Shown here piece after piece: positions 929 to 47,641 of a DNA stretch of 64,000 nucleotides. The stretch covers positions 186,001-250,000 of the forward strand of contig WFMF01000184.1 of assembly GCA_011033025.1 (NCBI GenBank), read 5' to 3'. The position numbers and the translations under genes are program-made. Every line of letters starts with the position of its first letter. Position 1 is the stretch's first letter. This DNA comes from Beroe forskalii. Lineage: Eukaryota; Ctenophora; Nuda; Beroida; Beroidae. The notes below the pieces were generated by a model. That model was not told the DNA's origin. It was given only the letters and a program-made list of their open reading frames with translations, and did no database searches.

Positions 929-3128
929 GGGTGTTTAACTTTGCTCCCGTCACAGCAGAAGATGCATCATACAGCGTTTTAGCAGATGATTTTGCTCTCC
1001 CATGTAGCTTAGGTAGTTTTGCTTTCCAGCCTAGTCTTTCGTTGTAGCTGAACTCCATATTGATGTCATTGGGTACTTTGTTGTTAAGGAGTTTCCACAC
1101 GTGTATGGTGATGAATCTCTCACGTCTTCTTTGAAGTGATTGTAATCCAAGGACTTGTAACCGTGCCCAGTAACTCATGTCCTTTAGGCCACAGATGTGC
1201 CTTATGAAGAAGCGTTGTAAATCCTCTATAGCTTTGATGTCCCCCAGCTTGTGAGGGTGCCACAAGGGGCTGCAGTATTCCAGCTTGCATCGAATTAGAG
1301 ATTTCCACAGTGTTAGCATCACCGGTGTACTTCGGTCTCTAAATACTCCAAGAACCCATCCTTCCAGTTTTCTAGCTCCAGCAACCATCGAGTTTATGTG
1401 GGTGGACCAATGATACTTGGAAGACAGTGAAACTCCCAAGTCCTTCACAACATCCTTGGAATCAAGGCTAAAACCCGCTGGAGTGTTGTAGTTGAACGTG
1501 CTAAATGGTAGTTCGTCCAGCCAATTGGGTCTCCCTGCTCTGTACAGTAACACAGGTACCCAAACTTACCCTCGTGCAAGACCATATTGTTTTGTATCGA
1601 CCAGTCCACAACCTTGTTGAGATCGCTTTGTAGGAGGGTCATTTCAGTCTCCTGGGTGATTGGTGCTGTGAGTCGAGTATCGTCAGCAAAACTTGCAGAG
1701 GATGCAAAGTCCACGACTTCTTCAAGGTCATTCACGTCAAGGAGGAAAAGCAAGGGGCCCAGAACAGTCCCCTGTGGTACTCCACTGGTAACATCTTCAG
1801 CTACAGAGTGTTGTCCATCAACAGTTACAATCTGTCTCCTGCCTGAAAGAAAGTCCTTAATCCATTGGTAGAGGCGACCTCCTATGCCATAGAACCGGAG
1901 CTTCTTCAGAAGTAAACTGTGATCGACCTTGTCAAACGCTTTGGAGAAATCCAGGTAAATCACGTCTGTTTCTATACCCATGGTCATGTTCTGGACTATG
2001 TTGTCGTAGTGAGCTAGAAGCTGGGTGAGGCAGCTGCGCCCTTTTCGGAATCCATGTTGTTTCTTGGATATCAGGGAGTTACCTTCTAGGAAGTCAACCA
2101 GCCTGTTCCTTATAACCCGTTCAAACACCTTTATGATGTGTGATGTAAGGGAAACTGGGCAATAGTTTTGTGGATCAGCTTTACTGTCTTTTTTGTGGAT
2201 AGGAGTTATAAATTGCTCTTTGAGCATGCTGGGTATTTTCCCGTTGGCAAAAGAATGATCCCAAAGCATGTGAATGGGGATGCAGAGATATTGCTTGAGT
2301 ATACATGTAGGGATACATTCGTGGGATGTGGAGGAGTAGGCATCAATCTCGTCAATGGCTTCTGCTACGTCGTCCAGTGTAAATTCCATGTCGGTGATAC
2401 TACACGTTGGGGGAGTGAGGTTCTCTGTTGTGTCGCATATGTCGCATATGTCGCATATTTGATGGGTCACTAAACACCGAAACATAATGCTTCTGAAGGA
2501 TGTCCGCTATTGTCTTTGGGTCTGTCTGGAGTTCGTTGTTATCATCCCTCAGCGGCATAATATTGCTTTTCAGCTTCGAGAACTTCTTAGCATAACTGAA
2601 GAAAAACTTTGGATTTTTCTTCACTGCAGTTACAGCCTTTACTTCCTTCCTAGTGAACTCAGTGTCGATTGCATCTCTGATATCGATGCAAAGAAGGCTG
2701 ATACTGTCCCTGGTTTGCTGTATTAGAGGAGAGTTGGGGTCACTGGCTTCAATGGCCCTGAGTCTGCATTTCTGTTTTCTCATCCTCCGTTTGAGGACCT
2801 GCTTCTTCCTGTTCCTAGGCTTGGGTTTGGCAGTATTGGAGGTGCTGGTTTGCGACTTTTTAGGACAGTGTTGTAAGGAAATTTGGAGAATGGTTAGCCT
2901 TATGAGTTCCATGAACATTGCACCATCGTCATCACCCTCTAGTAAACATGACTTCTGTAGTCCGTTCCAGTCGATGCCCTGCAAGTCCTCATTCATCTTG
3001 TCGAAGTCGCCCTTAAAGCAGTTGAGGGATTTGAATGAGTAGGGGTCAATATGTAGAACCCCCTGTGATGACTTGGTAGGTGCCCAGTCGATGGCAGATG
3101 TCACAGTCACTATGTCATGGTCAGAGTT
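929..3128 (-). pseudogene. CR1-like LINE reverse transcriptase, copy A, 5'-truncated and frameshifted
   Basis: Non-LTR retrotransposon pol remnant. On the minus strand it starts with the end of an APE-type endonuclease domain (SDHD, about 3114-3125), then a linker, then reverse transcriptase with motif A (LDFSKAFDKVDH), motif B (SGVPQGTVLGP) and the catalytic FADD (SFADDTRL), then a C-terminal region. The reading is split over three frames, with shifts near 2440 and 1550; both shifts are shared with copy B, so the element was already dead before duplication. A stop lies just upstream of SDHD and the rest of the endonuclease is missing. The 3' end is cut at about 929, losing roughly 60 residues that copy B retains. 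A CDICDIC stretch marks a local 9-bp triplication. The clade (CR1/L2-like within the jockey group) is inferred from the motifs. Confidence 0.85.
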
Positions 3129-3259
3129 GGAGCAACGATTTTATGTGCTCAAGCAAAAATAAATCGTATACAATCATATTGGTTGAAATTTGTGATCAAA
3201 GGGAGCAGACCTCAAAAAAGTCACAAAATATTACTGTATGATTTGGATTTAATTTTTTT

Positions 3260-3990
3260 TTGGATATGGGACGTCTGACTCCCGTCTCACCTGAGTCCAG
3301 CCAAATCTGTTTCCCGTTGAACCACTGACTTCAGTCACCTCTGAGCCTTGTCATCTTTGACTCTCATTAATTCTGAAACCTGTCACCACTGAGTTTACCA
3401 ACCTAGTCTGAGTCCTGAAACCTTTGGTCCAGTTAAGCAGTTACTCCTGACACTCGCCACCTCTGACTCCTTATCTTTAATAAGCCCATTCACTCTGGTC
3501 TCTTGTTATCGCTGAGTCAGGTCATTTATTTCTCCAGTACTCCAATGACCTATGGCTTAATTCATCTAATTCTAAGCATCTTTGAGTTCAGAGATGTCCG
3601 GGTACAATCACCTCTGACTCTCTTCACATTTCACTTCAGAATTTTGTCCCCTCTGACTTTTTCACCTCTGAGTCCAGACTTCAGTCGCCTCACTGCCTCA
3701 TACTCGAGACTTATTATCTCTCAACTCTCAAGCCACTTCTTAATACCTAGCCTCTTACACTGGTCAACTCTGGGCCCCAATTGTAACATGATGTTACCTC
3801 TTGTCACCCCAAAGCCCAGTCACATTTGACTCTCGTCAACTCTAAATCTAAAAGTCCAGTGACAGCTATTCTGACTGTCCTCACCTCTACTCCTCTAATT
3901 TCATTCTCCTCTGACTCTTGTATCGTCTGAGTCCTTTACTCACCCATGACTCTTGTCTCCTCTGATTGTGATTCAGTTGCATTACGCCAG
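3260..3990. repeat. degenerate TGACTC minisatellite, right block of copy A
   Basis: Same family as the block at 40-440: repeated ctctgactc, gagtccag and tcacc words with a ~17-20 bp spacing. It directly abuts the 5' end of LINE copy A. The reverse complement of this block flanks copy B at 52600-53275 with near-identical content, so array plus LINE were duplicated together. Confidence 0.65.
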
Positions 3991-4017
3991 TATATCACTT
4001 TTAAATTCGTTGATATA

Positions 4018-6860: not shown

Positions 6861-7041
6861 AGCACCAGGAAGTGCAAGAATTGGTAAAGCGAAATTGTGT
6901 TCCATTCCTCGATAGCTCGATAAAGCTTTCAACAGACTAGGGATTACCAGCACGGGACTGCTGAACATGGCTGTTGTATAAGAGCAAAGCAGGACGAAAC
7001 TGCAGTGCTGTTGCGTGAACCAGTGTGCTTGATGAGCAGTC
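6861..7041. other. bridge segment shared with inverted copy B
   Basis: This stretch matches the reverse complement of about 52290-52470 with only scattered differences. It joins the ORF1-like fragment to the arrayed LINE unit in both copies. No gene seen. Confidence 0.6.
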
Positions 7042-7731
7042 TTGTGCAGACTACAAGACCACAATATCTCACAGTATTGCTGCACGGCAGCGGAGTCGAT
7101 TGATGCTCAGAAGACCATCATCAAACTCTGGTCAGAACTGATATCAGTGAAGGAAGAGCAGCTAGAAGGGATCGGGACTACCGTTAAGACGTCACTGTTA
7201 AGGAAGAGATCAAATCTTTCAGCGCAGCTGTTCAGGGCAACGTTATGGAGAAGCCTGTCGGCCAGACAATACTGGAAAAGGTCGTTGAAGATGTCATTCA
7301 GGAAGAAGATTGCGCCAAGAATGTGATGATCTTTGTTCTCGAAGAAGAAAGTGAAGAATATTTGGGTGGCAAGGTAAACGAGCTTCTACATTCATTGGGA
7401 GAGAAACCCCGTGTTGAAGGTTGTCGTGTTGGAAACCCAGTGGCGGAACTGAAAGGCCTGTTTAGGCAACAAAAGCTTCGTCCTCAGTTGCAAATCAGAT
7501 ACTCGTCAAGTCTAGGAAACTTTCTTAGATAAGTACTGTGAGAAAGTGTTTATCAACCCGGACAGATCTCCAGAGGAGAAAGAACTGCGGAGGGAGCTGG
7601 TGAAGGAAGTGAAACGCTTGTCAGAAGAAGACAAAGAAAAGAGCACTATCTCAAGAACAGGCATGTTTGCAGTTTTCAAAGGAGTAAGGGAGGACAACAT
7701 AGGGATTAGGGTCATGTGTACCATAATATGA
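7042..7731 (+). pseudogene. LINE ORF1-like protein fragment, broken
   Basis: Three overlapping pieces in different frames give a recognisable order: a coiled-coil-like stretch (SELISVKEEQLEGI), an RRM-like stretch (NVMIFVLEEESEEY, then GEKPRVEGCRVG) and a basic tail (VFINPDRSPEEKELRREL). This combination is common in ORF1 proteins of invertebrate LINEs. The first ~210 bases match copy B at 52055-52300 in inverted orientation; beyond about 7255 the two diverge. It lies on the opposite strand from the LINE pol in both copies, so it is not the ORF1 of that same insertion in normal order. Frameshifts and stops make it a pseudogene. Confidence 0.65.
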
Positions 7732-9374: not shown

Positions 9375-9815
9375 CATACGGGTTTCCACCGTTTTTTATG
9401 GGTTTGAACGGGCCTTCACGGTTTTTTTGCGGGTTTTCGTGGATTTTTATGGATTTTCACGTGTTCTTACGGTCTTTGCGAGCTCTTGCGGTTTTTCGCG
9501 GGTTTTAACAAGTTCTTGCGGATTTTCTACGGGTTTTTACGAGCTAATGCGGGTTTTCACGGGTTTTGACGAGCTATTGCGGGTTTTTACGGGTTTTGAC
9601 GAGCTATTGCGGGTTTTTACGGGTTTTGACGAGCTTTTGCGGGTTTTTACGGGTTTTGACGAGCTATTGCGGGTTTTTGCGGGTTTTTCGCGAGTTATTG
9701 CGGGTTTTCTCGGGTTTTAACGAGCTAATGCGGTTTTTGCGGGGTATGACGGTTTTTTCGGGTTATTGCGGGTTATTGCGGTTTATTACGAGTTCAGTAC
9801 GGGTTTTTTCCTAGT
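9375..9815 (+). repeat. ACGGGTTTT minisatellite (10-bp and 30-bp higher-order units)
   Basis: Decamers of the form RCGGGTTTTT are tandemly repeated; between about 9545 and 9680 they form a 30-bp higher unit (gcgggtttttacgggttttg plus acgagctatt). The period keeps long frames open, giving false proteins rich in FTGFDELLRV. A related array in opposite orientation is at 58310-58680. Confidence 0.88.
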
Positions 9816-11513: not shown

Positions 11514-11519
11514 ATTTAT
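11514..11519 (-). terminator. polyadenylation signal overlapping the stop codon
   Basis: On the minus strand the frame ends CCTCAATAA and continues ATCATT, so AATAAA overlaps the TAA stop. If used, it would give an extremely short 3' UTR; a later signal cannot be excluded. Confidence 0.35.
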
Positions 11520-14500
11520 TGAGGGGCTGGATTTCTTGGAATGAGACGTGATCTTAATTCTACAACAAACTCATCGTCTGCATCAAGTGCTTCTTCTGCT
11601 TCGAGGGATTTCTGTGAAACACCCATGTTGCTGTCTGTGTGCAGAAATTTGTGCTTCTTGAAACTGTCAATATGTTTCCGTGCCCAAGTGTCAATATCTT
11701 TGGTATTTCGATGCAGGTATATATTTTCAGGCACTTCTTCAAATCCTTTGAATCCACATCTACCCTCGACCCATTTAAACAAGTCAGCTTTCTCCATGGT
11801 CTCGAGCAAAAGCTGAAACTCATTTTCCATTTTTGGGACTGAGTTCCGAGATGAGTACACCTCCTTTAACTCCTTCATCAGAGAAATCTTCACTTGATGC
11901 ACAAAGTGAAGGGATTTGCTGTGTGACTCAATCACACTTTCTGTTGTGTTTTCTGCTGATAAACTTCTGGCCAGAGCATTGTTAAGGAGTTCATTAAAGT
12001 AATCGTCGGCCACACGACTCCCTTTCTGATCACGGATTCCTAAAGGTTTATGAGTGAATAACTGAATGCATGACTGTATACATACAAAAATATTGAGATA
12101 ATATTTCAATATCATGTCCTACGAATATTCAAGATAGTTTTTCGTAACTTAAAACTGAAAAATCGACATATGGTAACACTTTTTCTCTAGTTGCTGAGAA
12201 GACACGCTAGTGTCGGGTAGATACGGATGTGTAGTGTGTACGTCGTACGCGGTGTCAGTGGAAATCAAAATATCAGTGTATTTTTGGCATTGTGTCATAA
12301 TATAGTTATTAGTTATACAAAGTCATAGGATTCCTAGAAATGCTATTATGGAAATAATTGCACGAGAAGTAGACGAGTGCACTTAATTCTATAATTGCGT
12401 ACCTTCGAAACCTATTCCGGTTAATAAAAATGACCGGTTTAAGTGGGGCCGATTAAATTAAAGGCCAGTTGAAAAGTTGATTTAGGTCAAATGAATCTTT
12501 TAGTATTTGGCTTATGTACCGTAAAGTTCATTTTATAACACAGATAATGACCCAAATCATGATATTAGACTAGGATATGAGTTTTTAATGATATTTACTG
12601 ATAATGTTATTTACTGATTTGCCATGTTCTAAGTTTATAAATTGGACATGTGAGGAGTGCAATGTTGTACGCTAAGCTAACGTCCCGTAGTGGTATTATT
12701 GCTAAAATTGTACGAGGCATTGCCGAGTGCTAACTACACTTACAGCACTATTCACACGAAGAGAAGCCGAGTTTGATTATTGCACTTATTTCACGAGACG
12801 ACGCCGAGTGCAACATTACCACTAGGGGAGTTAGATCAGCGTATTATACCACGACACAAAATGGTATAGTAGTCTCACGATAAGTTTTGACCGATTTAAA
12901 GGGTAGTACTATATGCGTAGAGTCGTGTTCTACACGCGTTTTATATCGTGTGTTTGTTATGACTTACAACTTTAAATGTAAATCTATGCGACCTTTGTAT
13001 TTGCGTTACAAAAATGTGCATATCTCCGAGGTTTTTTTGAGCAAACTTGATGAAACTTTCAGGATATTTAGAGCTAGATATAAGCAACATCTCAATGAAG
13101 TTTAGATTCATTTTTGAGCCCCAGAAGCGGAGTAATGACCGAAAAGCCACTTATTAAGCGGGAACTTTAAAACAAAACACCAGTTTATTTGTCATATCTC
13201 AATTTCTGGAGGTCAACATTGTTAGCTACTCCAGGATTATATTGGTCATATCTTGCCCGTAATATCCTGAAAGTTTGATCAAAATTGCTCAAAAAACGGC
13301 TGAGTTATGCGCTTTTTTGTTTTGTGTAAACAAGCATTTTTTATTATTACCATATAAGGTAATGTGTGCTTGTTGTGTACAGGGTGTGTCTTGTGTACAC
13401 CGTTCGACTACTATAGTACTTTAGAGGCTCAAACTCACCGCAGAAATATGATTTAGAGCACTCGGCTCAGCTTCGCTTCGCCTCGCACTCTAAATTATTT
13501 AAATGTCTCCAGCTTCGCTGTCGACATTTAAATATTATATAGAGCCCTGCTCGCGCAGGGCTCTATATTGTCTGCGTGTTCGTCTTACGCCTCTAAAGTA
13601 CATATAATAATCGCTTAGAGGATGGCTGGGACTGCGCTAATATACGCTAATCTAACGACTCATAGTGGTATTGTTGCACTTATTGCACGAGGCGAAGCCG
13701 AGTGCCAATAAGTGTACTAATCACACGAGGCGAAGCCGAGTGTTGATTAGTACACTAATGTGCACGGGGCGTCAGCCGAGTGCATATTAGTGCAACAATA
13801 TCACTTCTGGGGAGTTAGATTAGCGTATAATACCACGACCAATGCAATATGCCCTGATATTGCACTGTGGTTATTTGCACTGGAGTGGTATTATAAGAAT
13901 TATTGAATTAATGTACACTTACAACTTTGCAAGCACCCTTAAAATTGGATAATTGATTGTAATTGATTGTGTCATCTATATCATGAAAACATGAACCAAT
14001 GACCCTGAGACAGCACCCACGGTTACATGAATTATGATCACCTTTTTACTGTAAATCACCTGTCGTGCGGTTCCAGATAAGCTTTTGCGCCTCACGTTGG
14101 GTCAATAGGCTTTCCAATGCAATCAGAAGTTGTATGCCCGCAAAGGCATATTTACTGCTGTTCTGCTGCCTGTAGAAAGACACGAGAAACCGCCACACCA
14201 AGACAATCCGATCTCCATCACCTGAGTGAAAATTAATGAAACGTGAAAAATTGTGCAGTACGTAATGGTGAAAAAAGAAATGCTTCAATTGATTAAGCGA
14301 AAAATTGTTATATATACAGGGGAAAAGTTAGGGAAATATATGTCTTCTTGTTATTTTGATATGAGGGCTCCAGCTTGAAAGTATAAATCAAGGTTAATAA
14401 GATATAGTAAGATAATACACGGCACTCCTATTTTCACGGCTCACGCTTCATGGTACGGTTGAAAATAAAATATCAACTAGTGGTACCGGAAGGCTTATAA

Positions 14501-17500
14501 GCTAGCGGCCACTGGTTCATTCAATTTTACAGTTCGATTTTGCAGTAAAAATCACTTTTGAATGATGATTGAAGGGACTTTTAAAAAATTCGAAATTTTT
14601 CTGGAAAAAGGGCGTGGCCCCCACGCTCCTCAGTGTGACCCAATATTGCGGACAAAATTCTCAAAATTTTTATTCACCATAAGCAAATCAATGGCGTGCG
14701 TTATTTATAAGAAAAAAAGATTAATGTACATAGGTAATAAGAACAAAAACTGTTCTTTGTTATTATTAATCATTTGAGAATACTTTTTGGAATTATAGAA
14801 CACGGCGTGGCAGTGATTAATCTACATCAGTAAAGGGAACAAAAAATGGGCCCTTTTTTGTTATTTATCTTTTGAGACCCCTTTTTGATTAATATAAATT
14901 AATAAATTATATAAATATTACGCTGCAAGCATTGCCATTGCATATCATGGGGCACGAATATTTCATTGAAGTTAAGAAGTTACACTACTATTCGTGTAAA
15001 ATGAATTTTTAAAAACAGTTTAAATTGAAAGAGTCAGCCGGAGTATTTTCCTAAATTATTTGGGTTACCTTCTTTAATAGCATCCTCAAAAACCATCAAT
15101 AAAAGTCCTCCAAACAAAACCATCCTCTGATAGTTGAACCTAAAAAAGGTATTTAAAGGGTTGAGCTCAAACCAGGGGTACTGAATAGCTCAGTGATGAA
15201 TGAGTGCTGAATGACTTAATCTGCATGCTAACTGTCTACATCATAAATAATTGCATGACATATAATTGTTTGATTGACTGGGAAATGAATGTAGTCGTAA
15301 ATACCGACTGACTGCGTAAATAACTGAACGATAGATAATTCGTTTGATTTTTTAAAAATCAGATTATACATAAGGGGACAGGGGGTCTTCAGGGTGTCGA
15401 TGGCCAGGCTTGAAATGATAGAGGAGCATCGTAGCTGGCAAAAACCTTACAGAATGAAAAATCTTGTTCCTAGCCTGTGTTATTCGATTTAGAACATCAG
15501 AATTACAGTACCTACGTACCCAAACTTCTAAGTTCTATCGAGATCAACTTAATCGCGATACTTTAAATTTGCCTACATATTGTATTACGAGAGTACGAGG
15601 TAAATCCAGATTTTCAAAATCGAATAACTCAGACTAGGAACAAGACTTTTCCATTCCGTATAATAAAGGAATGGAAAAATCTTGTTTTTGCAATTTTGAA
15701 AATCTGAAAAACTTTAAAACTTTAATGGTAGCCACGATGCACCTCTAGATTCATTTCTAGCCAAAAACTCCATTTTGACGACCCCCCTGCCCCCGTAATG
15801 ATTAAGGCCGGCAATAATCACGTACTTCACATCACTTTCTGGTCTTCCCCTCAGCAATTTTTCTTGGCCTAAATGCTGCCTTCCAATATGGTAGTTCATC
15901 GCCCCAAGTGTTGCAGCAGTATGATCACAGGATCGGGATGGGCACCTGAACAAGTTTTCTGTCCGTAGCAGCTCATCATAATCCTTAGTTTCTAAGATGT
16001 TGGTCAACATCTTATGCACCAACGCCCTGAAATAATATGTTCCCTCTTTTAATCACTCGTTAAACCATCTTAGTGATCACAAAAAAATAGAATGAGCAAA
16101 TTAATGAGTGAGTCGTTTATAAATGTAATAATAATAATAAATTCAAGTTATTTGTTACACGCTTAGACATCGTTATTAAATATAACCCGAAAGCAATATT
16201 TTAGCCATTAAATGCTTTAATGTTTGATTTAGAAGCACGAAGGAAAGTAGCATGAAAGTTTTTAAAATTTAATTCATGCACTTACGAAAGCCTTGCAACT
16301 TCCAGCTTTTCTTCGCCTTTCTTCACTCCTTTGCTGTATCGATAGCCTTCATCTGTAAGCATCTGTTTTACAAATCCCACGATCACTACCTCAGTATTCA
16401 GGATAAACATTCTCCTGCATACAGCATTGTTCTCTTTCACTCGATGCGTCGCAGCCTGAGTGAAATATTATGTCTGCCGATATTAATTATCTATCAATTT
16501 TTTGAATAGCCCATGTCATGTATATTAAAAGCATTTCATATTTCCTCGAATTATGATCAATAGACAAAAGTGACCATTTTTGATTTTTTTCAGAGAAAAA
16601 TTAATACTATTATTATGCATCGGTCTTGTCCTCAGTAAAAACGTGACCTAAGTCTCAATTCATCAGAATTACCCTCTTGTTATTGATCAGGTAGCAATTG
16701 CCTGTAAATGTCCCCTTTTCTGCAATCGCCGTGTCTTTATGGATCAATTGAAACATCCTCTGTAACAGTTTAAAGATTGCATTATAATTGATACTTTGAT
16801 AGAAAAATGTGTGAATGGTGTCCAATAGATCTATTGAAATGTTATTAAAAGCCCTGGACGTAATGGACTAGGTATAATGCATATTCTAGGCTTTTTGACA
16901 AAAATTTGAATAGCAAAATCTTACGGAAGAAGCTCAAACTGGAACCTAATCAATCCATTTTTTGATAATTAAAACATTAATTATCCTTATTCAAAACATA
17001 ATTTTAGCTACAGTATTCGTACCCTACGGAGTAAAAATAGCATTTTTCGATTTAAATGAAAACTTTTATGCCCACGGAAAATTATATAGAAGGGACCTAT
17101 GTAAGGATGTATTTGATCTGCGTGTGCAAGTACGTGGTGACCATAGCTCCGTACGCCTTTCAATTTCATTATTCCCTATTGTAGGTATTACCTATGACAA
17201 CGACGTGTGACACGCCAACAAAGATTATCTCTAAAACTCTAAGATATTTATAGTAAGTCTAATGCTCATTGCCCAACCACAAAAATCCACATACCTACAG
17301 TATGACAAGCCCTTACACATAAAAATTTCAACGATTCATACATCTGTCGAGTATGATGATGCTGCTTGGGCTATTCTTCTTTCTACGTTTATACGATATT
17401 GAAGTTTTACAAACTCACTTGTAAGTAGACAATCTTTGCGTGCCAATCGGAACACGTTGGGTGGTAACGGTTAAGGATGTTATCCTCCATATGGGACTGT

Positions 17501-20500
17501 GCTAAGATTGCACTACTGTAACGGCTTTTGGTGAGCTGAAGAAGATTTATTGAAGTTAGCCTGGAACGAAGAGCGCTTTTTTACTTTCCTCCCCAGCTGT
17601 CATTTTAATCTGTAAAAGTGTGGTATAATGGAAATTTTCTATTACTAACATTAGTAATCGTTCCGCAGTCGATTGCTGTACTGTATTGTGTATTGCAAAA
17701 TTTTTATTATTAATCCTCGCCTAAAGTCTCTAGGTATAGATAATGAATATCTTGCTGAGATTGTCCAGCCCGAACTTAAATACCAAAGCATAGATTAATA
17801 GATTTTGGTGCACTGATTGCAGACTTGTAAAGGAAAAGTCATGTTTTGTGGTATTACCGGAGGTTACTCGGCCCCGCTTGTAAGTATAATTGATGGTTGG
17901 CATTCAAGAATTAGTCAAGTTAAGATATTTTGTACATTACGCACGATAGATATCTATTACGACGAGCAAGATCTCTCCAAAACCTCTATGTCAATGGATT
18001 TTTTGTATATTTTTTATCTTGAGACAAGAAAGCGATTGAGGATAAAGTAGGCAGGTAGCTTAGTAGCAATCCAACAGATGAAAACATGTACCCACTCGAT
18101 TATGATGCTTATACTGTATTAAAATGTTAATTTTTATTTGTATCATCAACTTATCGATTCTGGCTTCAGCGAAAATTACGGCAGTAGCATTTATCGTACC
18201 TCATCTCCATCGATGATTATCTGAAAGAAGTGACATATTATGATAATTGCAATTGAAACTGTGACAATTGCAAATGAATCCGTCTTAGATCGAAATGTTT
18301 GAAATTTGAAATTCTTGATCGGCAACGATTGGCAAAAATGCCATAATAAATTTATGGATTTATGGATCTGCTCGCTAATTTTTTACCACTCATTCGCCTC
18401 ATTCGCTGGAATAGAAGTGTCAAAGAAAATTCAAATTTTGCGGGCATAACTCGGTTCTAGCAATCACTGATTGGGTATTACTGTTGGAACTTATCAGGAA
18501 ATAGTTTCAGGAGTAAGGCATGCTTTTGTGACAAAACTGTTACAGCTGCAGTTGATTTTGGTATTGGACATTGATAATCATTAGTGATCATGGACGCCAT
18601 AACCTTTAATAATATAGTCCTTCACACTTCCTGGCGCTCAACATAGTATGAAGTTTGAAGCCTTGAAATGAATTTATTTCTGATCAGCCATCAGAGCGCA
18701 AAATGCAAATTTTCCGCCACACATATCTACATATATTGTGCTGTACACGGTGTACGTTTAAGTACATTTAAACATTGAATGACAATGTATAAATTAGGTA
18801 GTAATATCTTAGTGAAGTTGTCAGTTACGTGCTGAGTGTTGTGACATATCAATAACCTTATCATGGTCAGCCTTCTTCATCTCTTCTGAAATCCAGTTAG
18901 GATATATATCCCTCAGTATTTGTACCATCTCAGCCGTTTTCTGTTCGTACTTGTTGTAACACCCCAAAGGTACCTGCATAATATAACTGAATTTGACCGT
19001 GGTCGTGGCAACCTTGATGGTCAATATGTTTTCGTCATGATAGCGTACCATTTGAATGTGTATTCAATTTAGGACTATGCCATAATTTTTACCATTAGGT
19101 ATACAATTAAACCGCATTTGAGGACTGATTTCACGGATCGGGTCGTTGAGTAAGAGTCGCATGGTTCTATGAAAATATTGAATAATTTATCCTTAATCCT
19201 CAATATAAAGTACGAATAGTTATATTTACAGAACTGAAGATGACGTTGAACCACGACATTGATTGCCAGTACGGAATACCATAGTTTATCTTGTACCAGT
19301 ACATCCGAGCCAAAAGAGAATAAATTAATAATTATTTCCGCCGAAAATCGAAACGTTTCGACACGTCTTTATAAAATACTGTAGAATTCACAGAAACTAC
19401 GTTCCAAAAGTACATGATTACCGTAACAGATGCGTGACTCAGATCCTCAGAGTATTTATGTTCCACATGTTGCGGTAAGTATTTACCAAACTTTTGAAGC
19501 TCCGGCATTCTCTTAGTTATGACTCTCATGCATTCTATCACGAAATATGCTGTCAGAGATTCGAAATGGTTTTTATTAGGCAAGATGTCAGACGGCTGCA
19601 GGGTTTTGATATCAACCCTTGGAGTAGCAGGTATCGATTCATCTGGAACGACCTCAAGAACTTTTGCAAATATATTGAACATGTGGATGTCTTTGTTACT
19701 GTTCTTCAATCCTGGATTTTTAGCTTTGATCGACTTATCGTAGTTATCACCTGGAGAATAATATAGAGTTACAACACACCATCGAGCTGTGAATTGGTGA
19801 ATATTCCTCGAGGCAAAACCGAGTGGAATATGGGAAATCCACTACAAAATAGTATGTGGTAGCCGTATTATTTATAGCGATCCAAGCAAAAGTTACGAGG
19901 CCGCTCCGTAAACTGGATTTCAAACTCGGCGAACGGGCCGTGAGTTAAATGATAATTCCTATGTATGAATGAGAAAATAAAAGTAAGAATTTCTCCAAGT
20001 TGACTCACGTGTTACTATCCACGTGTTATTTTGAGCCAATCTCCTAATAACCTACCTACTATCTTCCAACAAATGTTCTTGTGCTTATAGATGTGATTTT
20101 CAGAGGCACCATCTTTCACTTGTCGCAAGCAGAGCCCTCCCGAACTATTAACCGAAAACACAACATTCTTCGTGCCTTCGGTAAGAAGAAACTTCGGATC
20201 GTCGGTTAACTGGGTAACATGATAATATTTTAGTGCGACTTACTTCACGGCAGCAAATAGGCTTTAAAATTTGGAGTTTTTTAACTGCAGGGAAATGCAA
20301 CCCACATATAAGATCGTGACTATTACATTTTATTTGGCCAGTACATGACAGTATCTACTTATCTACTTATCTAACGTAATCCATGCAAACTGCAAAACTT
20401 GACATTGAATTGGGTGAACATTTCGCATGCAGTCATAGCAATATTTCATAAGTGCCATGTCATATTGAATATCCAGTATATAATTATTATTCGTAGGTAT

Positions 20501-23500
20501 TGATATAATGACTCGTACACTTGACTTTCCTGAATTCCTGATATTTAGGACTTACATCCTTGGTTTGCACATCTTTCTTCTCATCGACGCTTGTCATCAA
20601 TTTCTTAATCAGACTATCAAAGTTTTTTTCGGCCGATTTCATGGCCCTCCATACTGATACTGAGCTGATTGACATTCCCTCCTTGCACAAACAATCCAAA
20701 GCAAGATTAGTCGTGCCTTGAAATATAAAATAAACAATTCAGATGATGAAGCTACCCAGGCTGATTTGTCCAATCAGAGATACAATGTCTCTCTTACTTA
20801 GGCAGGTATTAAACCTGACAATCTTGTTAAAATTAATGTGAAGCCATCATTCTTACTGCCCAGTGGACACCGATGAAAATGCTAGATTAGCCAGTAAAGT
20901 TGTGACGAGCATTCTTTAATTGTAGATCACATTGAAGAACGCCGGCATAAGACGCCGGCATCAATATTACATAAGACGTATTACAAGAAACACGACGTCT
21001 TAATTTTTATCATTAATGAATGTTTGTCACGCCTTCACTCGTCAAAAAATTATACTATAGATACCTTGTGTTTCGAGGAAAATTCCAATTTTAGCAGCTC
21101 GTGCTACCAGCACGTTGGGATATCTTAGCTTGAGCATATGGCAAAGCACTAAGTAGGTATGATTCTCTCCAATTGTTGGAAGGCTTTTCCTGTAATCCTC
21201 TGACATGTGGTAGTGATCTTCAGGAGTGGTGATGCCTTTCAACAGCTTCCACAGTATCGGCACTCGTTGTTTCAGTTCTTTCACTATTGTATCTTTGTCA
21301 CATTTCAATATACTCTTGACTGCCTCTGAAAGGATGTAACTTTCTGGGCTTATTGCAGTCAGTGGGGGAACTAGAATGGGGTTGTGGCGAGGTTGTAACC
21401 CCGCCATTCTTTTTCAAATTTTCACTTCAAGAAATCAGGAGAAAAGTTTATGATCTGTTATCACGAATCAATAATACAGTAAATGAATAACTCAGAAAAC
21501 AATATTGCCTATGAACGTACCATTTTCATCCGGTATTCACGCAGATTATGGAAAAAGTCCAAATGATATTGAACTTTTGGGGTTCATACGAGGTACCATA
21601 GTATGAGCCCGGGTGGCTATTGTTTAAACACTATGCATCAAATACAGAGTAGTTTACTGTTTAACTACTGAAATCTGGACTAAGGCGTAGTTACGAGGGT
21701 GACGACAGCCATTGCTTAAGAAACCAACCTTCATTCTGGAGTCCCCCTGGTGGCAGTTTGAGGATGCTAGAAGTTTCGGGTTTTCTTAAAGTCTGCATTT
21801 CCTGTTTGACTTCCTTTACAATCATTTCTACTGAATCATCTTTCCGCACAGTCTCCTGCATATAATAACGAAATATGCATGAAAATACCGACAACTTAGT
21901 TGATGCAAGATGAGACTCTTATAGTAAACAAGTTTATAACCATTAAGAGGGTAGTATCTGTTTCGTTTATCATCGCAAATTTCAGAATGCTATTTCAGGA
22001 ATTTGTTTCCACTTTTAATACTTTCATGGCTATAATACCGGGTGTTCACGGCAGTTGTTCCTAACTTTGGGCGACGATTGTGGGAGAACCAAAGCAGATA
22101 GGCTTACCAAACTTTGAAAAATGGTTCAAAATGGCTATAAAATAGTGACTAGCTATCCCAGCTGATTTTTTTGATGATTTTTTCAATATTGCCATACTGG
22201 ACGTAAGAAGTTCGACATGTTCCCGGTCACCTAGGGCCTTGAAATTTTGGTTGGATGAACTCTGACATCTAATTAACACTGGTCACTGTGTAAAAATTTC
22301 AGAAAGATCCAATAAGTCGTTTTGATTTTATGACCAATTATGTAAACAGCATAAACTCGCCGTACGCGTACTGCAGCACAAGTCACAACAAAACATAAAC
22401 AACAAGGCCCTAGGTGAACGGGGACAAAATCATCAAAAAAATTCAGCTGGGATAGCTAGTCATGATTTTATAGCCATTTTGAACCATTTTTCAAAGTTTG
22501 GTAAGCCTATCTGCTTGGTTCTCCCACAATCGTCGCTCAAAGCTAGGAACAACTGCCGTGAACACCCGGTAGAGCTAAAAGATGAACATTTGATATATTT
22601 CACTAATTTCATATTGGCTTGGTCATTATCACACTGTATATTCAAAGTCATAAAAACTTAAAAACCATACATTCAGTGAGTAGATTTTATCATGAACAGT
22701 TATGCAATCGTTTCGACACCTCCAAAGCTTCCAAAATGAAAACTTGGCCCTGATTTTGACTCTTGGGATAATATAGAATAGATTTGATGTCTATCGGATG
22801 CTAGTGAATCGTTGTGAGGACATGATAGCTCCCATTTGGCCAAAAACTTACTCTAACCTTACTGTTGCACCAAAAAGGTGCCAATATGGCCTCAATCACT
22901 GCCAATATATTGGCAAGGAGGGACTTGGTCAACTCTCAAGGACCTGTCCTGATCAATCGTTAATCAGTACAGAGTAACTCACAATACCACGTTTTAAAAC
23001 ATTAAAACAATTCAAGTGATTCTTAAGACAGAGTGGAGGGTAAAAAGTTGCCCATTTCATCGCCTCTCTACAGGCCTGAACTCATCCCTATCAGTCCCTG
23101 ACTATGGCAAACGTTTAGGAGGACCATATTGAAGAAGACTGGCTAGCTCTCATCATTAATTGCGGCCTTGGAGAGTATTGGCACCATCAAAATCTACAGG
23201 AAGTAATCTATATTAATAATTTCAAAGTGTTCGTGCGTCTGTGTATGTATGTATGTGTGTATGTGTGTGAAATGCGTTTATAAGAAGTGCATTTAATATT
23301 TTTGATCGGTTTTTTCGGGAAAATCTTCACCCAATTAAGAGGATTATTCATATCTATGATAAATTTGAATTGAACTTTCCGTTAATTAGTTATTAGTATA
23401 ATAACTATCATGCGATTACTAATGCTAATATATGCTGTGTATATATATAGGTGATCTCAAATTACAAAGTATGTTGTACGGTGCATTTCTGCGAATATCT

Positions 23501-26500
23501 GTAATCCTCGGTAAGCGGTAGCATGTTAAAGTGATACCTAGGTGATCAAATCACTTTACACATTCCAAGATGACGTCATGAAGCAAGTTGCTTTTGGCTG
23601 CTGGATACAAAACGAACCGCAGGTTGATTGTTTCCGCGAATCTTCGCGGGCAAACGCTTACAATATAATAAAAGTGAAATTTGGACTTTTTTATTCCAGC
23701 AGTTATTGAGCGCCTGGGGCTAGCCCAAATAATTAAAGGCTTTACACCATGGATTTTCATAAATGTTCATCTATTTCGACAATTTGGAGCACAATTTCAA
23801 TCTTTAATAAATGGTTCCCAATTACCTCTGAAAGCCGAATGAAAGCGATGATAAACGTCACATAATATTCTATGTGTTTATGTGTATTTGTTAAAAGTTG
23901 TATACAAGACGCTTTCTATAGCAAGCAACACAGTCCTATTATGTATTACGTGGCACTGGCACGTACAATAAAAAGAAATGTTGGAATCAAAACTGACCCC
24001 CCCCCCCCCAAAAAAAATATGATCATTACTCACGTAGGTTTTTCTCGCTATTTCTGAGCCATGTCTGTAAAACAGTATAGAAAATAAAACCGTTGCAGTA
24101 TGCTTTTCAGTGAGTGAATTCTGCTCTGCGATTATCTGCTTCTTTCTGTGCTTTGTTTTAATTCTTAGAGTTTCGAAGATGAAACCCCACATAGTTGGAC
24201 AGTTCCTTTTAGCAAGCGAACGAAATTCACCTAAATTTTAATACTAATTATTACTAAATTTAAATCAATTCTTATAAGATATAATAATATGATAAATATT
24301 GTTTAATTTGTAAATCTGGCCCAAAATCGGAACAAATTCTACACCAAGCGATTTTGACTGTTTTCTATAGCTTTTTTGTCTAAACAAAAGATCTAAAAAC
24401 TTTTCAGAACATTCCTGGTTGGGGAAAGTGCCGCAAAATCGATTTTTAGTTGAGGTGCAGCAGACTGATCTGTGAAAATTCGTAATCTGTGAAAATTCAT
24501 AATTTCATATACAACTTGATGATAATTGTAAGCCTTGAAATGCTGAGGAACCGAGCTATGGGCTGAAAACCGATTTATTGAACACTTGCAAGGCATTGTC
24601 GAGGCGATTTATGTATCTCGACTCAGGAAGCCTGTAGAGATTTCAGTGTGGGCCTCGGGTCATTGGCAACAGCCCGATTTTTGGTCAACCATGGGCCATG
24701 AGACCAATCTGAAACAATTTTATATCTTAGCAGTATGAAATAAATTTCAAATATCGCCCACCTACAGGTCGTAGAGCCAGGTGTCATTAATGATTCATCA
24801 ATCATTATCAGATCATCTTAACATGAGCCTCCTAATAGTCTACACCATTGAGCCCTTCTTGGCAGCTGTGATTTTAAAATCGCGTTTGCTCGAAAAGCAA
24901 AAATCAGTTTTATTAAACATTATATCTATAGGTACGAGTCACATGTAAACATGGCAATTGCTTTATTTTAATAAGTGTCAGCGACCTTCCTGGGCTGAAG
25001 TACAGCCCAGGAAAATTACCTCCGCTCAGAAGAAAAACTAAAATTTCATTGCTATTTTAGTATATTAGGAGCTATCTATAAAGGACGTCCGAAAAATTTC
25101 GGCCGTTTAAGACCACTGCCTCCCCCCTTGTGCGCAAACGTCTGCATTCCAGAAACCCCTCCCCGATCCTGGAAGCCCGGACGTCCGCATTTGTCTTGAA
25201 AATCTTCTTGTTCATCATTTTTGGGCCGAAAATTTCTCGATTTTCTAGTGAAATACCCTTCAAATCATAAACTGTGGACGTCTGCATTTGGTCAAAACTC
25301 ACCCCCCCCCCCCATATGTCCGCAAACGTCCGCATCGGCCAGACTCTCCCCTCATTATGGACGTCCTTTATGGATGACCCCTTAGGAAAACCGGACAGAC
25401 AGATTATATAACATATACATTATATGTTATATTATATTGTATCAGTATGCTTTACTAATTTGTTACTTTGTCTTTTAGCTATAATGATCCACAGAAGATT
25501 GCACAATTCGAAGTTACAGACATCCTAAATGTTGTTTCATTTGAGTACTGATGAAAATTAAAACATTATATGTATTTATATAATATATAAATACATATAA
25601 TGTTTTAATTTTCATTATATTATAAACAATATACGAGGAAGAATCATTATAAGTAGTAAGATATACCTTACTTAATAAGAACAAGCTGCAATTTATGAAA
25701 ATCTTACTGGCCGTGGCAGTTAAAGACGGTGATGAGTTGGCAAGAGCTTTGGACAACTTTTCCAGCTCATCCTGTGCATTCTGAAGGTGTTACTTAGGTG
25801 TTATCTAAAAAAAATTGCACTCCATTTCTAGCTGTTTTGCAAGGCAGCAACATCTTACAGATGAGGCTTCTTGCATTCAATATTATTTCATTAGGTTTTT
25901 CAAACCAATCCCATGAATTTTGAATGATATAAATATATATAATATATATTATATTCGGTATTACGACATCACTTACTTGTTGTAAATCTGATATGTGGCT
26001 ACCGCAGCTCTGCATTGAAACGTCATCGATCTGAAATGATTCCTATAGTACTGTATCATGATTCATGACAGGTCGGGGGAGATTCAGGTACTAAGTTGCA
26101 GACACAGGGCCGACGATCCTGCATTTTAGCCTTTTTTTGAGTTGAGACCACCCACCTGTATTTTGGTACCTGGGTACTAAGTGGTTTTGGCATAAAAAAT
26201 TAAGACACCCACCCTAAATTTAAGTTTTTGGAGCAGTTCCAGAATAGACAATTTAATTCCAGACTCTGGTAGTACAAAGGAATCTGAAAAAAGTGCTATT
26301 TGAGTATTTGATATTGAAATAGGCACAATTACAATAGTTTCAATCATCATACAACTGAACTCCTCATTTATTTTGTGCCAGGCAAAGTTGAAATTCGTGC
26401 CCACTGCCCTGCAAAATAACCTTGTGGGAAAACATCTTCCCACAGTTATAAGCATTTTTTATGCTCTTCGGTATATTTTGGATTTATTTTGTCCATTGAA

Positions 26501-29500
26501 GGCTTACTCATAACCAATTGACCCAAGCTCTCCCTCCATTTCATTCCCTTCATTCCTTTTTTTATAAAGCCCTAGCCCCTACATTTGGGTGCGTCGATTA
26601 TTGTTGTTTTTGAGATAATCATGATGGTGGAATGTTTTTGTTGCTTCATCTGTATTCTGGTTCTAAAATGACTCTGGTAGCAGTTTTTGAGAACAAAACT
26701 GAAGTTTCATGGTTGAACCAGTCATATGATACTAGGGCGTTCGGAAATGATTGTCACTTCAGGCATAAAATGAAAAATATGGTCAAATATGTCAAAATTT
26801 CGACATATTCGAGTACAAGGGTCTCTACCAGACTGAATTGCAAATTTTCAGCGTTAACGAAGATTTTTGAGTGGGTCATTTAGCTTGTTTTTGATTGTTT
26901 TCAGGTGCTCTGCTGTATGGCGAATTCTACATCTTCTAGGCCATGTTTTTATGGCCTGATTTCACTATTCAGGACATATTCAGGGCGTTCAGGTCCAAAA
27001 CTAAAGAATAGGATGATTGGTTGACATTCGGGGCAAATTTCTGTACAATTTAACCCTGTATGATTGATACAGATTGGAGCTAAATGTGGCAAATTTAACA
27101 GTTCAGTAACCGATAATGCAGTACACATCTTGCACACACGTTTCTGAAGTAAAGACAATAACTCAAAATCTTAAAAATGGTTGTCCCGTGTACGGAAGGG
27201 TCTGAACTAATAGCCTAACACGATAACCGAAGGTTTTAAGTTATTTAAATGTTGTTTTTCTAGACAAAATCCAGAGCAAAAGTTGCAACTGCCCTATCTG
27301 GAGCAAATCCTTTTTGAGGTGAAAGCACCCTTTAGGATTATTTCATCTCGACGAAAACAGTCCATTTGTTCCGGTTAGCATCCACGTGTGCTGCAACAGC
27401 CTCATTTTGATTCTCTCTCACTTCTTTGGTCCGTTGATAGCACGTTTTCTTTGACAACGAAATTTGTGGTCAGTTTCGTACAGCGGAGCAAATAATTAGA
27501 AATTTGAATCTGCTGTAGAATGGGCTAAGAAAACTTAGTTATCGGTAAAACCCGATTATCTTAATCCAAAAATGTCTGAAAAACCGAATATCACATCAAA
27601 AGTTATTCCCGGCAGCCGTTTCTCCAGAAAATTCCAAGTGACATTCTTTTCCGAACGCACTATTATTTTAGCACGTCATGCTTTTCCAAGTGAAGTTGGA
27701 GGTGATTCTTTATCTTTACCTACAATCTTTCGAAATAGAGGGTATTCCAGCTTGTTTTATAGCTCTGAAAACCCTAACAGTATCCGAAAACTTTGATTGG
27801 GCCCAAGTCAAAAAGCATAGAATCAAAATTTCGGATTTTGATCGCGTGACTTAGATCGCATGATCATGAAAATTAATAAAATGCGTTTTTAATGTTTACA
27901 TATTATGAACTTTAGATACTGCAATCGTTTTGTCAAAAATATATAAAAATTAATTTGCGACCTGATAGTGATGAAGTTAAATTTTCCATTTCGGCTAAGG
28001 GACGAGAACTAAAATGCTTAATATGGTCACGTGACTAGCTAAGAATTGCCCTAAAATCGCCACTTTAATGATTCCACTCGAAACTTTTGGATCTTTATCA
28101 AGGTTTCATAACCATTTAACACTTAGGTGTGTTGGTAAAAGTACCTACGTCCTAACCCCTTACAGGATTTATGGGTGACTACACCATGTTCGAAGTTTTG
28201 TGACCATCTTTGTAGCTTGCACAGGTCATTACACATTGAAAAAGTAAGTTTCAATTCATGTGAGCACTCGCCATACGAAAGCACTAGGTATTCGTAAGAG
28301 TGAGATATTACAGAATACCTTAGTACCAGAAGTATAGGCGACTAATACCTAATTAAGGCGCAAGATATTAAGGCGACAAGATATTAAGGCGATTTTTTCC
28401 TGGAGTTTAAATTGAAGTTTTTTTTTTCGAAAATAAACGATTTTTCCATTTAAAATGGCTATAAAATGAATTTAAAATTGAACAAAAATGCAAAAAATCT
28501 TGTTACAGTGGGCATTCAAAATACAGTACATCAGATCCTGAGCTTTTCAAACGGGTCAATCAACATTCCAGAGTCAATACCGGCATCTTTACATCGTGCG
28601 ATAGCGTTAGTGATACCAGAAGTTGCACTGGCTATTAAGTTATTTATCATGTTGCTAAATTGAAAAAGTCGATTGTGGAGGAAAAATAACTGAAAATAAA
28701 ATATCTTATTAAGAAATTAAGACGACCAGATATTTAGACGACCAGATATTAAGGCGATTTTTCCAAAATCGCCTTAATTTCTTGTCGCCTATATTTCTGG
28801 TACTATAAGGTTTTTTATAAGGTATGTTCATTGTACAAACAAAATTGCGAAATGTTTACAGAATGTCTGGTGGCCAGGTAGCTCAGTCAGTCATTAATAA
28901 GCGTCGGATTTAGCAATCGAGAAGTTGCTGTTCCCCGCCCATTCTAATTTTGTGCTAACGTGCGTGTTATTTGGCTCCAAAATGTATTGCATTATCTAAT
29001 TAATGTGTGATCAGGCAGAAAATTAAATTTTGGAGATGAATTTCCCGCAGTTTACGGGGAAAAGTAAATATTTCACACTCTGATACTACGAAATCAGTAG
29101 ATATCGACGTATTTTAGTACCAAGGTACCAACTGATTTTTCAAATTCCAGCTGATGACCACGTATTTTAGTACCCAGGTACTAAACGACATTCGAGGGAA
29201 AAATAGACCCACCCACCGGCCCTGTGTCTGCAACTTAGTACCCGAATCTCCCCCGGACAGGTATAGACTATAGAGTATAGAGACTACGTTCGCAAATGTA
29301 CACAGTAATTACAATGTACTGATTGGTATTTGGTGTTCGTTATTGTGCATGTGTACATTTGCTAAATAGTAAATTCAGCAAATTATATACACATGCACAA
29401 ATACAGTAAATGGGTCAGCTAAAACAGGGTAAATGAAAGTTGTTAATAAACAGGGTAAACAGTTTAAAAGCATGTTGAATTAAGTTTTGTAACATTCGGT

Positions 29501-29790
29501 AATTCAGCGTGTCGGAATCCAAATATCAAAATTAAAGATGAACTTTCAAAAACTGGATATGAACTTTTGAAAACTACTGATGGACTTTTGAAAACTCCAT
29601 CAATGAACTTAGGTAAAGTTGAACTTACCTGAGGGGAGTAGGACATAGCGTTGGAGCTGAAGGAAGCATCATCCACATCTGAAGCTCTTTGTGGATTAAC
29701 TAGATTCTGTTCAACAGACATTGCAGCTGAGTGTATGGACGTCGAAGGACTTGATTCTTGAAACCTTTCACTTGATGAAGGTCCAGCCAT
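11516..29790 (-). CDS. DUF6589-family protein, 17-exon gene model
   Basis: Exons: 29790-29629, 26030-25977, 25780-25667, 21855-21729, 21370-21065, 20716-20556, 20209-20056, 19750-19422, 18973-18857, 18220-18200, 17535-17419, 16759-16673, 16455-16286, 16026-15826, 15139-15069, 14221-14060, 12039-11516. All junctions are GT-AG, phases match throughout, and the total is 2,877 nt (958 codons plus TAA). Marks in order: basic/coiled N-terminus (73-152), helical region (153-308), GDNYDKSIK (360-368), KYSEDL then VPLGCYNKYEQK (470-481), GDE (513-515), DWHAK (545-549), a C-x4-C-x12-H-x4-H zinc finger (668-691), FNYQ, DGDR, YAF and WNR (780-782), and an acidic C-terminus. This order fits proteins annotated DUF6589 in animals and fungi; that name is from memory. 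Function is unknown; an ancient transposon origin is possible. The first exon and the end of exon 3 are the least certain. Confidence 0.78.
12670..12841. mobile_element. foldback MITE copy 1 (TA target duplication)
   Basis: Ends are CGCTAAGCTAAC and, reversed, CGCTGATCTAAC; flanks are TA (12668-12669 and 12842-12843). The body holds three short hairpins of the form CGAGG-loop-CCGAGTG. It lies in the last intron of the DUF6589-like gene and is homologous, in the same orientation, to 13645-13825. Confidence 0.72.
13440..13572. repeat. three consecutive hairpins
   Basis: A cluster of inverted repeats: ATTTAGAG...CTCTAAAT enclosing CACTCGGC and GCCTCG words; ATTTAAATGTC...GACATTTAAAT; and TATAGAGCCCTGC, a 4-nt loop, then GCAGGGCTCTATA. 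They sit between the two foldback MITEs, so the whole interval may be one composite element. Confidence 0.6.
13645..13825. mobile_element. foldback MITE copy 2 (TA target duplication)
   Basis: Ends CGCTAATCTAAC and, reversed, CGCTAATCTAAC are a perfect inverted pair, flanked by TA (13643-13644, 13826-13827). Three CGAGG...CCGAGTG hairpins are inside, two of them with the GGCGAAGCC core. Sister of 12670-12841. Confidence 0.75.
14568..14700 (-). repeat. isolated inverted copy of the 60.0-kb GGCCACGCCC repeat unit
   Basis: The reverse complement contains TTGCTTATGGTGAATAAAAA, GAGAATTTTGTCCGCAATA, TTGGGTCAC and GGCCACGCCCTTTTT, in the same order as the ~133-bp tandem units at 60010-60475. It lies in intron 15 of the DUF6589-like gene. 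Confidence 0.6.
15069..16759 (-). CDS. exons 12-15 of the DUF6589-like gene, with zinc finger
   Basis: Exon 12 (16759-16673) encodes RMFQLIHKDT and EKGTFTG, matching the family's 'W..ly...s....GTl' region. Exon 13 (16455-16286) is a basic helical piece ending LEVARL in phase 2. Exon 14 (16026-15826) contains the C2H2-like finger (CPSRSC ... HIGRQH). Exon 15 (15139-15069) encodes FNYQRMVLFGGLL and FEDAIKE, which runs into DGDRIV of exon 16. Donors TCGTAAGT and GAAGTACGT give phase 2 exactly where the next acceptor needs one base. Confidence 0.72.
17419..18220 (-). CDS. 21-nt micro-exon and DWH exon of the DUF6589-like gene
   Basis: Exon 10 (18220-18200) is 21 nt between TTCTTTCAG and GTACGA and encodes IIIDGDE. 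Exon 11 (17535-17419) begins LTKSRY and ends with DWHAKIVYLQ at CAA|GTGAGT. Joined they read GDE-LTKS, where family members usually have GDQ-LT. Both exons are phase 0. The micro-exon is supported by splice sites and by the motif it completes, but its short length makes it the weakest internal call. Confidence 0.6.
19422..20209 (-). CDS. core exons 7-8 of the DUF6589-like gene (GDN motif)
   Basis: Exon 7 (20209-20056, 51 codons plus one base) opens after CCCAG and ends ATAGTAG|GTAGG. Exon 8 (19750-19422) follows after TTCTCCAG. The split codon regenerates the G of GDNYDK, giving WKIVGDNYDKSIK, the most diagnostic block of the family. Exon 8 ends SHASVT at ACG|GTAATC, although the raw frame continues to a stop at 19332 as intron read-through. 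Exon 7 has no start codon of its own and is easy to miss. Confidence 0.75.
22038..22569. mobile_element. 532-bp TIR element with long arms and TA duplication
   Basis: Left end CCGGGTGTTCACGGCAGTTG pairs with the right end over about 130 bases (up to the AGCTGGGATAGCTAGTCA block), with weaker pairing further in. Flanks are TA (22036-22037 and 22570-22571). Small frames on both strands are mirror translations of the arms. Non-autonomous, in intron 3 of the DUF6589-like gene; Tc1/mariner-like by target site only. Confidence 0.82.
23225..23272. repeat. TG/TATG microsatellite
   Basis: Short run of tgtatg and gtgtg units in intron 3 of the DUF6589-like gene. Confidence 0.6.
25068..25381. mobile_element. 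314-bp PIF/Harbinger-like MITE
   Basis: Ends GGAGCTATCTATAAAGGAC and, reversed, GGGGTCATCCATAAAGGAC, each continuing GTCC, flanked by TTA on both sides (25065-25067, 25382-25384). A 3-bp TTA duplication with G-rich TIR ends fits PIF/Harbinger. The interior repeats GGACGTCYGCATTTG-like words and a long C-run. No protein encoded. Confidence 0.68.
25551..25615. repeat. perfect 65-bp palindrome with 32-bp arms
   Basis: Thirty-two bases starting ATGAAAATTAAAACATTATA are repeated exactly in reverse complement around a single central A. It lies 52 bases past the donor of exon 3 in the DUF6589-like gene. Confidence 0.9.
26074..29255. mobile_element. 3,182-bp TIR element filling intron 1 of the DUF6589-like gene
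   Basis: Terminal repeats of about 38 bp (CGGGGGAGATTC, then GGTACTAAGTTGCAGACACA, then GGGCCG) are inverted at the two ends, with further shared sub-terminal words (GGTACCTGGGTACTAA-like). Flanks are a perfect 7-bp duplication GACAGGT (26067-26073 and 29256-29262). The interior has no transposase frame I recognise and carries a nested TA element at 28318-28822. The right end of this plus-strand interval is about 370 bases from exon 1 and the left end about 44 bases from the exon 2 acceptor. Confidence 0.82.
28318..28822. mobile_element. TA-flanked MITE, copy 1 (nested)
   Basis: Starts CCTTAGTACCAGAAGTATAG and ends with the inverse CTATATTTCTGGTACTA...AAGG, flanked by TA (28316-28317, 28823-28824). 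It is almost identical to 47642-48130 in the same orientation. The right end has a small extra TAAGG-type insert. AAGGCGACAAGATATT words repeat inside both ends. A 65-codon frame at 28466-28663 is preserved with few changes in the other copy, but identity is as high outside it. Confidence 0.85.
29629..29790 (-). CDS. first exon (54 codons) of the DUF6589-like gene
   Basis: ATG at 29790 opens a serine-rich stretch (MAGPSSSERFQESSPSTS) that ends at CCTCAG|GTAAGT, a textbook donor, in phase 0. Upstream in the same frame there is only a TTG codon and then a stop, so the ATG is the best start. Low-complexity Ser/Pro residues suggest a disordered N-terminus. It joins exon 2 (26030-25977) in phase. 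An alternative first exon is the cysteine-rich piece at 30428-30709. Confidence 0.55.
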
Positions 29791-42425: not shown

Positions 42426-42910
42426 ATTTGTGTGTACGTCATCGATGGATGGCGATGCATTGAACATGGCATACATTTTACAGTGATAAAGTGTGTCAGT
42501 ACAACATTCGCGCTGTACACAAACCACAATGTAATGTACATCACCTGACTGCTTAATTGCACCATGTGATCATTGTCAGCATTCGCGCGCATGTATATAC
42601 ACATTGGTTCGTACGGTTCATTGTTCATTTCTTACACATATTTTCTTTACGTGTGAAAGTTGTTCCGTCATTAATTCGTTGATTTGTGTGTACGTCATCG
42701 ATGGATGGCGATGCATTGAACATGGCATACATTTTACAGTGATAAAGTGTGTCAGTACAACATTCGCGCTGTACACAAACCACAATGTAATGTACATCAC
42801 CTGACTGCTTAATTGCACCATGTGATCATTGTCAGCATTCGCGCGCATGTATATACACATTGGTTCGTACGGTTCATTGTTCATTTCTTACACATATTTT
42901 CTTTACGTGT
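42426..42910. repeat. exact 229-bp tandem duplication
   Basis: 42426-42654 and 42682-42910 are identical base for base as read, separated by 27 bases. The unit has no TIR or LTR-like TG...CA ends and no primer-binding-like site between the copies. The duplicated short frames are shadows. Confidence 0.92.
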
Positions 42911-47640: not shown

Positions 47641-47641
47641 A

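Follow-up and report, generated by a model that had tools for sequence, protein, structure and literature searches.

A spliced 17-exon gene of the DUF6589 family in Beroe forskalii and its possible origin from a DDE-type transposase

We identified a 17-exon gene on the minus strand of a 64-kb window of Beroe forskalii DNA (the window being the whole stretch that was analyzed), encoding a protein of 958 residues that is a new member of DUF6589 (PF20231), a known but functionally undescribed family. The exons, joined from 29790 down to 11516, form a chain of 2,877 nt with phase kept across 16 introns, all 16 of them GT-AG, and with a single, terminal stop codon (Table 1), and the remaining two frames of the chain contain 61 and 78 stops. 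We consider it somewhat probable that this spliced locus belongs to the host as a member of the family and that DUF6589 represents a portion of a DDE-type DNA transposase core; among the leads opened by the analysis, such an origin is the most useful.

An earlier note on this DNA had described 17 exons, 2,877 nt, and 958 residues at 11516..29790. Our rebuilding of the chain, carried out with these end points, exon count, length, and motifs known beforehand, reproduced the exact numbers and confirmed the observation of a spliced 17-exon gene. Successive models of our own, preceding the final chain, encoded 923, 914, 920, and 929 residues. Exon 3 was added last, because it exactly fills the 114 nt missing from the 920-residue model relative to the 2,877-nt chain, and it is optional. 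A shorter candidate for the same place, 25780-25708, was out of phase and was dropped, the longer form being taken instead. An extra 27-nt exon at 17343-17317 kept the frame yet lowered the DUF6589 score by ~10 bits and was rejected, as was an acceptor at 17560 for exon 11, which broke the frame.

The donors of the chain had a mean score of 5.06 of 7, compared with 2.30 for 962 GTs in the region, and the acceptors a mean of 9.4 of 14, compared with 6.8 for 988 AGs. The donor or acceptor mean of the chain was reached by none of 20,000 random draws. As the sites were picked by eye, these scores serve as a consistency check only, and the profile match reported below is stronger evidence for the gene. 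Exons 8 to 17 are well supported; exons 1 to 7, lying outside the DUF6589 profile match, are placed by reading frame and splice sites. The gene also illustrates that raw sequence can suffice for reading out a large, many-exon gene, even one in which an exon measures 21 nt.

Table 1. Exons of the DUF6589 gene in the window (positions in the 64-kb window) and inverted-repeat arms of three intronless elements on other contigs
Feature	Positions or arm length	Strand	Remarks
Exon 1	29629..29790	-	ATG at 29790; frame and GT site; no family support
Exon 2	25977..26030	-	GT-AG and phase; no family support
Exon 3 (optional)	25667..25780	-	required for 2,877 nt; frame open with or without it
Exon 4	21729..21855	-	GT-AG and phase; no family support
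Exon 5	21065..21370	-	ahead of core; GT-AG and phase
Exon 6	20556..20716	-	carries G-M-S-I-S
Exon 7	20056..20209	-	GT-AG and phase
Exon 8	19422..19750	-	GDN-D (D361, codon 19748-19746), KYSED
Exon 9	18857..18973	-	VPLG..NK.E
Exon 10	18200..18220	-	21-nt microexon, IIIDGDE; D514 (18205-18203)
Exon 11	17419..17535	-	LT...DWHAK (H547); acceptor 17535 holds GDE-LT in frame
Exon 12	16673..16759	-	EKGTF; within profile match
Exon 13	16286..16455	-	within profile match
Exon 14	15826..16026	-	C2H2-type finger C668-C673-H686-H691 (15944-15873), by pattern only
Exon 15	15069..15139	-	FNYQRM...DAIKEG
Exon 16	14060..14221	-	DGDR, YA, WNR
Exon 17	11516..12039	-	D797-x3-E801-x2-N804 (12004-11981); stop codon at end
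C441 inverted-repeat arms	341 nt		93%
C237 inverted-repeat arms	240 nt		99%
C703 inverted-repeat arms	351 nt		95%; several overlapping, left arm cut by end of stretch

The spliced core matched the Pfam profile of DUF6589 over nearly its full length (positions 6-401 of 410) with 81.7 bits and an E-value of 5.9e-23, against a curated cut-off of 27 bits, and the earlier interpretation of the locus as a DUF6589 family gene is thereby supported. The first full model, of 923 residues, scored 61.5 bits (E 8e-17), with DUF6589 as its sole Pfam match at E up to 10. We scored the core in four variants: with the first exon 14/15 boundary, the score was 63.7 bits including the 27-nt exon and 73.6 bits excluding it, and with the better boundary, it was 71.5 bits including the 27-nt exon and 81.7 bits in the best variant, which is the core of the 958-residue model. 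The exon 14 donor combined with the exon 15 acceptor at 15139 raised the score by ~8 bits.

Two non-overlapping parts of the protein each exceeded the DUF6589 cut-off, in the correct order, namely exons 8-11 plus three exon 7 residues (profile 6-149, 31.3 bits) and everything from exon 15 onward (profile 276-403, 33.7 bits). No DUF6589 match was obtained for a middle piece alone (from an earlier version of the chain with an extra exon) or for a piece reaching from exon 4 into exon 8. The GDN-D of exon 8 precedes the start of the profile match. All motifs named in the earlier note were found in the order given there along the spliced sequence; of its zinc finger, the pattern C-x4-C-x12-H-x4-H is present in exon 14, whereas no Pfam finger model matches it. 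In the literature searched, DUF6589 is mentioned nowhere and PF20231 in an optics paper only, which agrees with the description of the family as lacking a described function.

The window also holds several repeats. At 931-4017 and 52526-55662, an element carrying a reverse-transcriptase ORF is present in two opposite orientations (95.6%), and a 1.5-kb piece of it had 45 genomic matches, counting these two. Another inverted pair, 6861-7258 and 52055-52469 (~92% alike), is also repeated elsewhere in the genome, where no other full-length copy is more than 77% alike to the query; the copy at 52055-52469 adjoins the reverse-transcriptase element. A giant mobile element spanning the window was considered and rejected, these outer inverted pairs being repeats found elsewhere in the genome. 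Arrays of 10-base units lie in opposite orientation at 9424-9781 and 58316-58645. A direct repeat of ~490 bases (28316-28805 and 47640-48127, 97.6% alike) has one copy in intron 1, and its ends appear inverted by eye, like those of a small non-autonomous transposon. The intron ahead of exon 4 holds an inverted repeat of 150 bases (22036-22184 and 22423-22571, 95% alike), and a perfect tandem duplication with a period of 256 bases and 1.9 copies occupies 42426-42910. On the plus strand, a 204-aa ORF at 45551-46165 matches the C-terminal domain of SAE2/CtIP (Pfam 5.1e-6), a DNA-end repair factor. No Rfam family matched the 64-kb window at gathering scores.

We searched the genome of the species (216 Mb, 1,134 contigs) for further copies. 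With the window protein as query, at least 22 matches were obtained at E up to 10, comprising the gene itself and fragments on contigs C208 and C325. The C208 fragment (L025 9604-9678) is a single 25-residue tblastn match to exon 16, 80% identical in protein, while C325 (L022, L023, and L024) carries 11 tblastn matches to the start of exon 17 within the 30 kb searched, 9 of them with GIRD-x-x-GS-x-VADD; the C325 fragments may be relics of lost paralogues. Genome searches without exon joining, which divergent spliced paralogues may escape, revealed no second full copy, and a search with a hand-written DUF6589-like bait sequence hit the window gene twice, with a single further place at E 4.4. 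Over the 25 codons shared with the C208 fragment, synonymous codons differ at 12 bases and the 5 changed codons at 11, with a dN of 0.12 and a dS that was not computable, a pattern that in so short a piece hints at past selection on the protein. Beyond the own genome, searches for relatives in the viral_contigs and genome_contigs sets confirmed none, a PDB sequence search with the core returned nothing, and the best match in PHROGs had an E-value of 0.018.

A DUF6589 search of the genome exon by exon did not detect the window gene; its one hit was an intronless 1,297-aa ORF on contig C441. Searching with this ORF listed 29 matches on 13 contigs, C441 itself counted, and its relatives were studied in 12 further stretches of at most 10 kb each. 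These were mixed, some being split or interrupted by stops and others open over 900-1,500 aa, and they make up a diverse family in which intronless ORFs combine a transposase-like, an XPG-like, and a cysteine-rich part (C441, C237, C703, C180, C274, C392, C536, and others). Long inverted repeats flank the ORFs at 3 of the 10 loci examined (Table 1), and the stretches searched at the other 7, outside which the element ends may lie, held no convincing ones. The flanks of the three elements showed no clean target-site duplication, the arm ends being uncertain and the left arm of C703 incomplete.

Among seven aligned ORFs, D284-N285, D524, H561, D745-x3-E749, and K756 are invariant (numbering of the first row). 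An alignment of nine C-terminal parts, from which the broken C237 part and the C36, C304, and C614 parts were left out, has a conserved cysteine-rich tail and invariant A-D, D-x-D, and G-x-D, which we take to be XPG-like nuclease motifs. The label "XPG-like" is based on these motifs, since Pfam names no XPG domain: neither Pfam nor PDB sequences gave an XPG match in the relatives, and the nearest nuclease model was NYN (E 0.017, 1 of 9 parts). The Pfam CXC model was found in 3 of 9 C-terminal parts at E up to 5 (best 3.8e-7), the C392 ORF lying above its cut-off, and the C-terminal alignment matched LIN54 in the PDB through its cysteine-rich part (E 0.0053), along with one defensin (E 9.5). 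The profile of the seven ORFs found nothing in the PDB, two further alignments gave one chance-level match each, and an RNase H fold was indicated by none of the sequence matches in Pfam or the PDB. The Pfam scan covered ORFs of at least 250 aa in the stretches studied except L042 2388-3926, L048 4975-6420, L040 6518-7360, L044 7085-7852, and L038 3993-5597.

DUF6589 was matched by 2 of 12 transposase-part ORFs scanned with Pfam (from 11 loci), one of them below the cut-off, and the other 10 had no match. The C441 ORF scored 28.5 and 28.1 bits over profile positions 139-360 (E about 1e-6), and the C703 ORF 21.8 bits, below the cut-off, over positions 136-359 (E 8.7e-5). ORFs resembling DUF6589 are located within elements that have long inverted repeats (Table 1). 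Both matches start just ahead of G-x-F-H and stop 1-2 residues past the E of D-x3-E (D658/E662 in C441; D373/E377 in C703), excluding the first two acidic residues. Counted along the 3' match, D797-x3-E801 of the window gene corresponds to profile positions near 358-360. Its GDN-x-D, GD, H, and D-x3-E-x2-N follow the order of the seven aligned ORFs, and by eye the G-M-S-I-S of exon 6 resembles a G-x-S-x-S that precedes DN-x-D in some transposon ORFs. D361, D514, and E801 occur in order in the window protein, their assignment as a triad being made by eye.

Compared directly with the transposon profile, the window protein gave P 0.25, and a second comparison was no better than shuffles. In a third, the core reached P 0.22 and the C-terminal part P 0.08, the best of 100 shuffles scoring above the latter. 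A profile of the window protein together with the hand-written bait matched the transposons in the expected register with P 0.0017 and a probability of 15%. Because the direct comparison is not significant, the link stands via the Pfam profile, for the region from the H to the E.

These results bear on how the family and the locus are to be read. DUF6589 could be an old host family unrelated to transposases, the matches in transposon ORFs being captured or due to chance, and both the direct comparison and the small share of matching ORFs, one of two below the cut-off, are in keeping with this. The C441 match, however, extends across >220 profile positions at its low E-value, and a second ORF matches the same interval, both ending at D-x3-E; this shared end point makes the explanation slightly less probable, and we regard it as unlikely. 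The location of DUF6589-like ORFs between inverted repeats, and the pieces similar to exons 16 and 17 that lie on C208 (1 match) and C325 (11), would favor reading the locus instead as the transposase of a still or recently mobile element whose ends went unrecognized. That reading is very unlikely in our view, given that one full copy was found, with 16 introns over 18 kb, whereas the relatives on other contigs are long intronless ORFs, and that no inverted-repeat pair with arms near the gene ends was found within the 64-kb window.

Decay offers a further explanation, in which the chain is a pseudogene of a former DUF6589 gene. A single copy and exon fragments elsewhere in the genome would suit it, but 2,877 nt free of internal stops, canonical sites at 16 of 16 introns, and the C208 comparison, with its hint of past selection from a short piece, speak against it, and we hold it to be the least probable of the explanations weighed here. 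The single full copy, the many introns, and the codon differences from C208 lean towards a host gene.

We prefer the reading of the locus as a spliced host gene with a transposase in its ancestry. Related proteins are found in apparent jumping genes, and the window gene may therefore descend from a DNA-cutting transposase. The ancestor would have resembled the intronless transposons that this genome carries, with an XPG-like part, a cysteine-rich tail, and inverted repeats that the window gene appears to lack. DDE transposases cut and transfer DNA strands with the help of two metal ions bound by an acidic triad. By analogy, the window protein would bind two such ions through D361, D514, and E801, with H547 nearby, and would contact DNA with its finger and its N-terminal part; it may still cut or join DNA. 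The fold, the catalytic triad, and any activity, as well as expression and use by the host, are inferred.

In its strongest form, the proposal would make the whole of DUF6589 an unrecognized DDE domain, kin to the transposases with XPG-like and cysteine-rich parts, and the window gene a single-copy transposase captured by the host, with its triad intact and possibly cutting DNA or rearranging the genome. We advance this form tentatively, as a possibility that is less likely than the proposed origin of the window gene. If DUF6589 is a transposase core, the whole family would gain a function, and the gene would add to the transposases known to have been retained by hosts.

The window gene resembles PF20231 by its nearly full-length profile match and differs from it by the finger and by extra residues in the middle; its protein is 27% identical to the hand-written DUF6589-like bait. 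With the intronless ORFs of the same genome (C441, C703, C237, and others), it has the order D, D, H, D-x3-E in common, and two of these ORFs match DUF6589 as well, over the profile interval 136/139 to 359/360. The ORFs carry a nuclease-like part and a cysteine-rich tail, some with inverted repeats, whereas the window gene has many introns, and no nuclease, cysteine-rich tail, or, within the window, inverted repeats near its ends were found.

Among described transposons, the nuclease of AcademX is of XPG type. PMC10045372 describes AcademX with a nuclease and AcademH with a helicase, along with target-site duplications of 3-4 or 9-10 bp. Academ transposons are also treated in PMC10799480, PMC9004415, and PMC9783078, and Academ together with DDE elements in PMC10294476. 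In the literature searched, no match was obtained for Academ and XPG named together or for combined transposase and domain terms. Judged by description, Academ transposons are similar to the elements found here in joining a transposase to an additional nuclease and in bearing inverted repeats. The window gene is no such element: flanking inverted repeats were not found within the 64-kb window, and Pfam matched no nuclease or helicase beside the transposase-like core in the 923-residue protein. FHY3/FAR1, presented in PMC13306707 as transposase-derived host genes, are MULE-derived plant genes, and the analogy, drawn from that description, is that of a transposase turned host gene.
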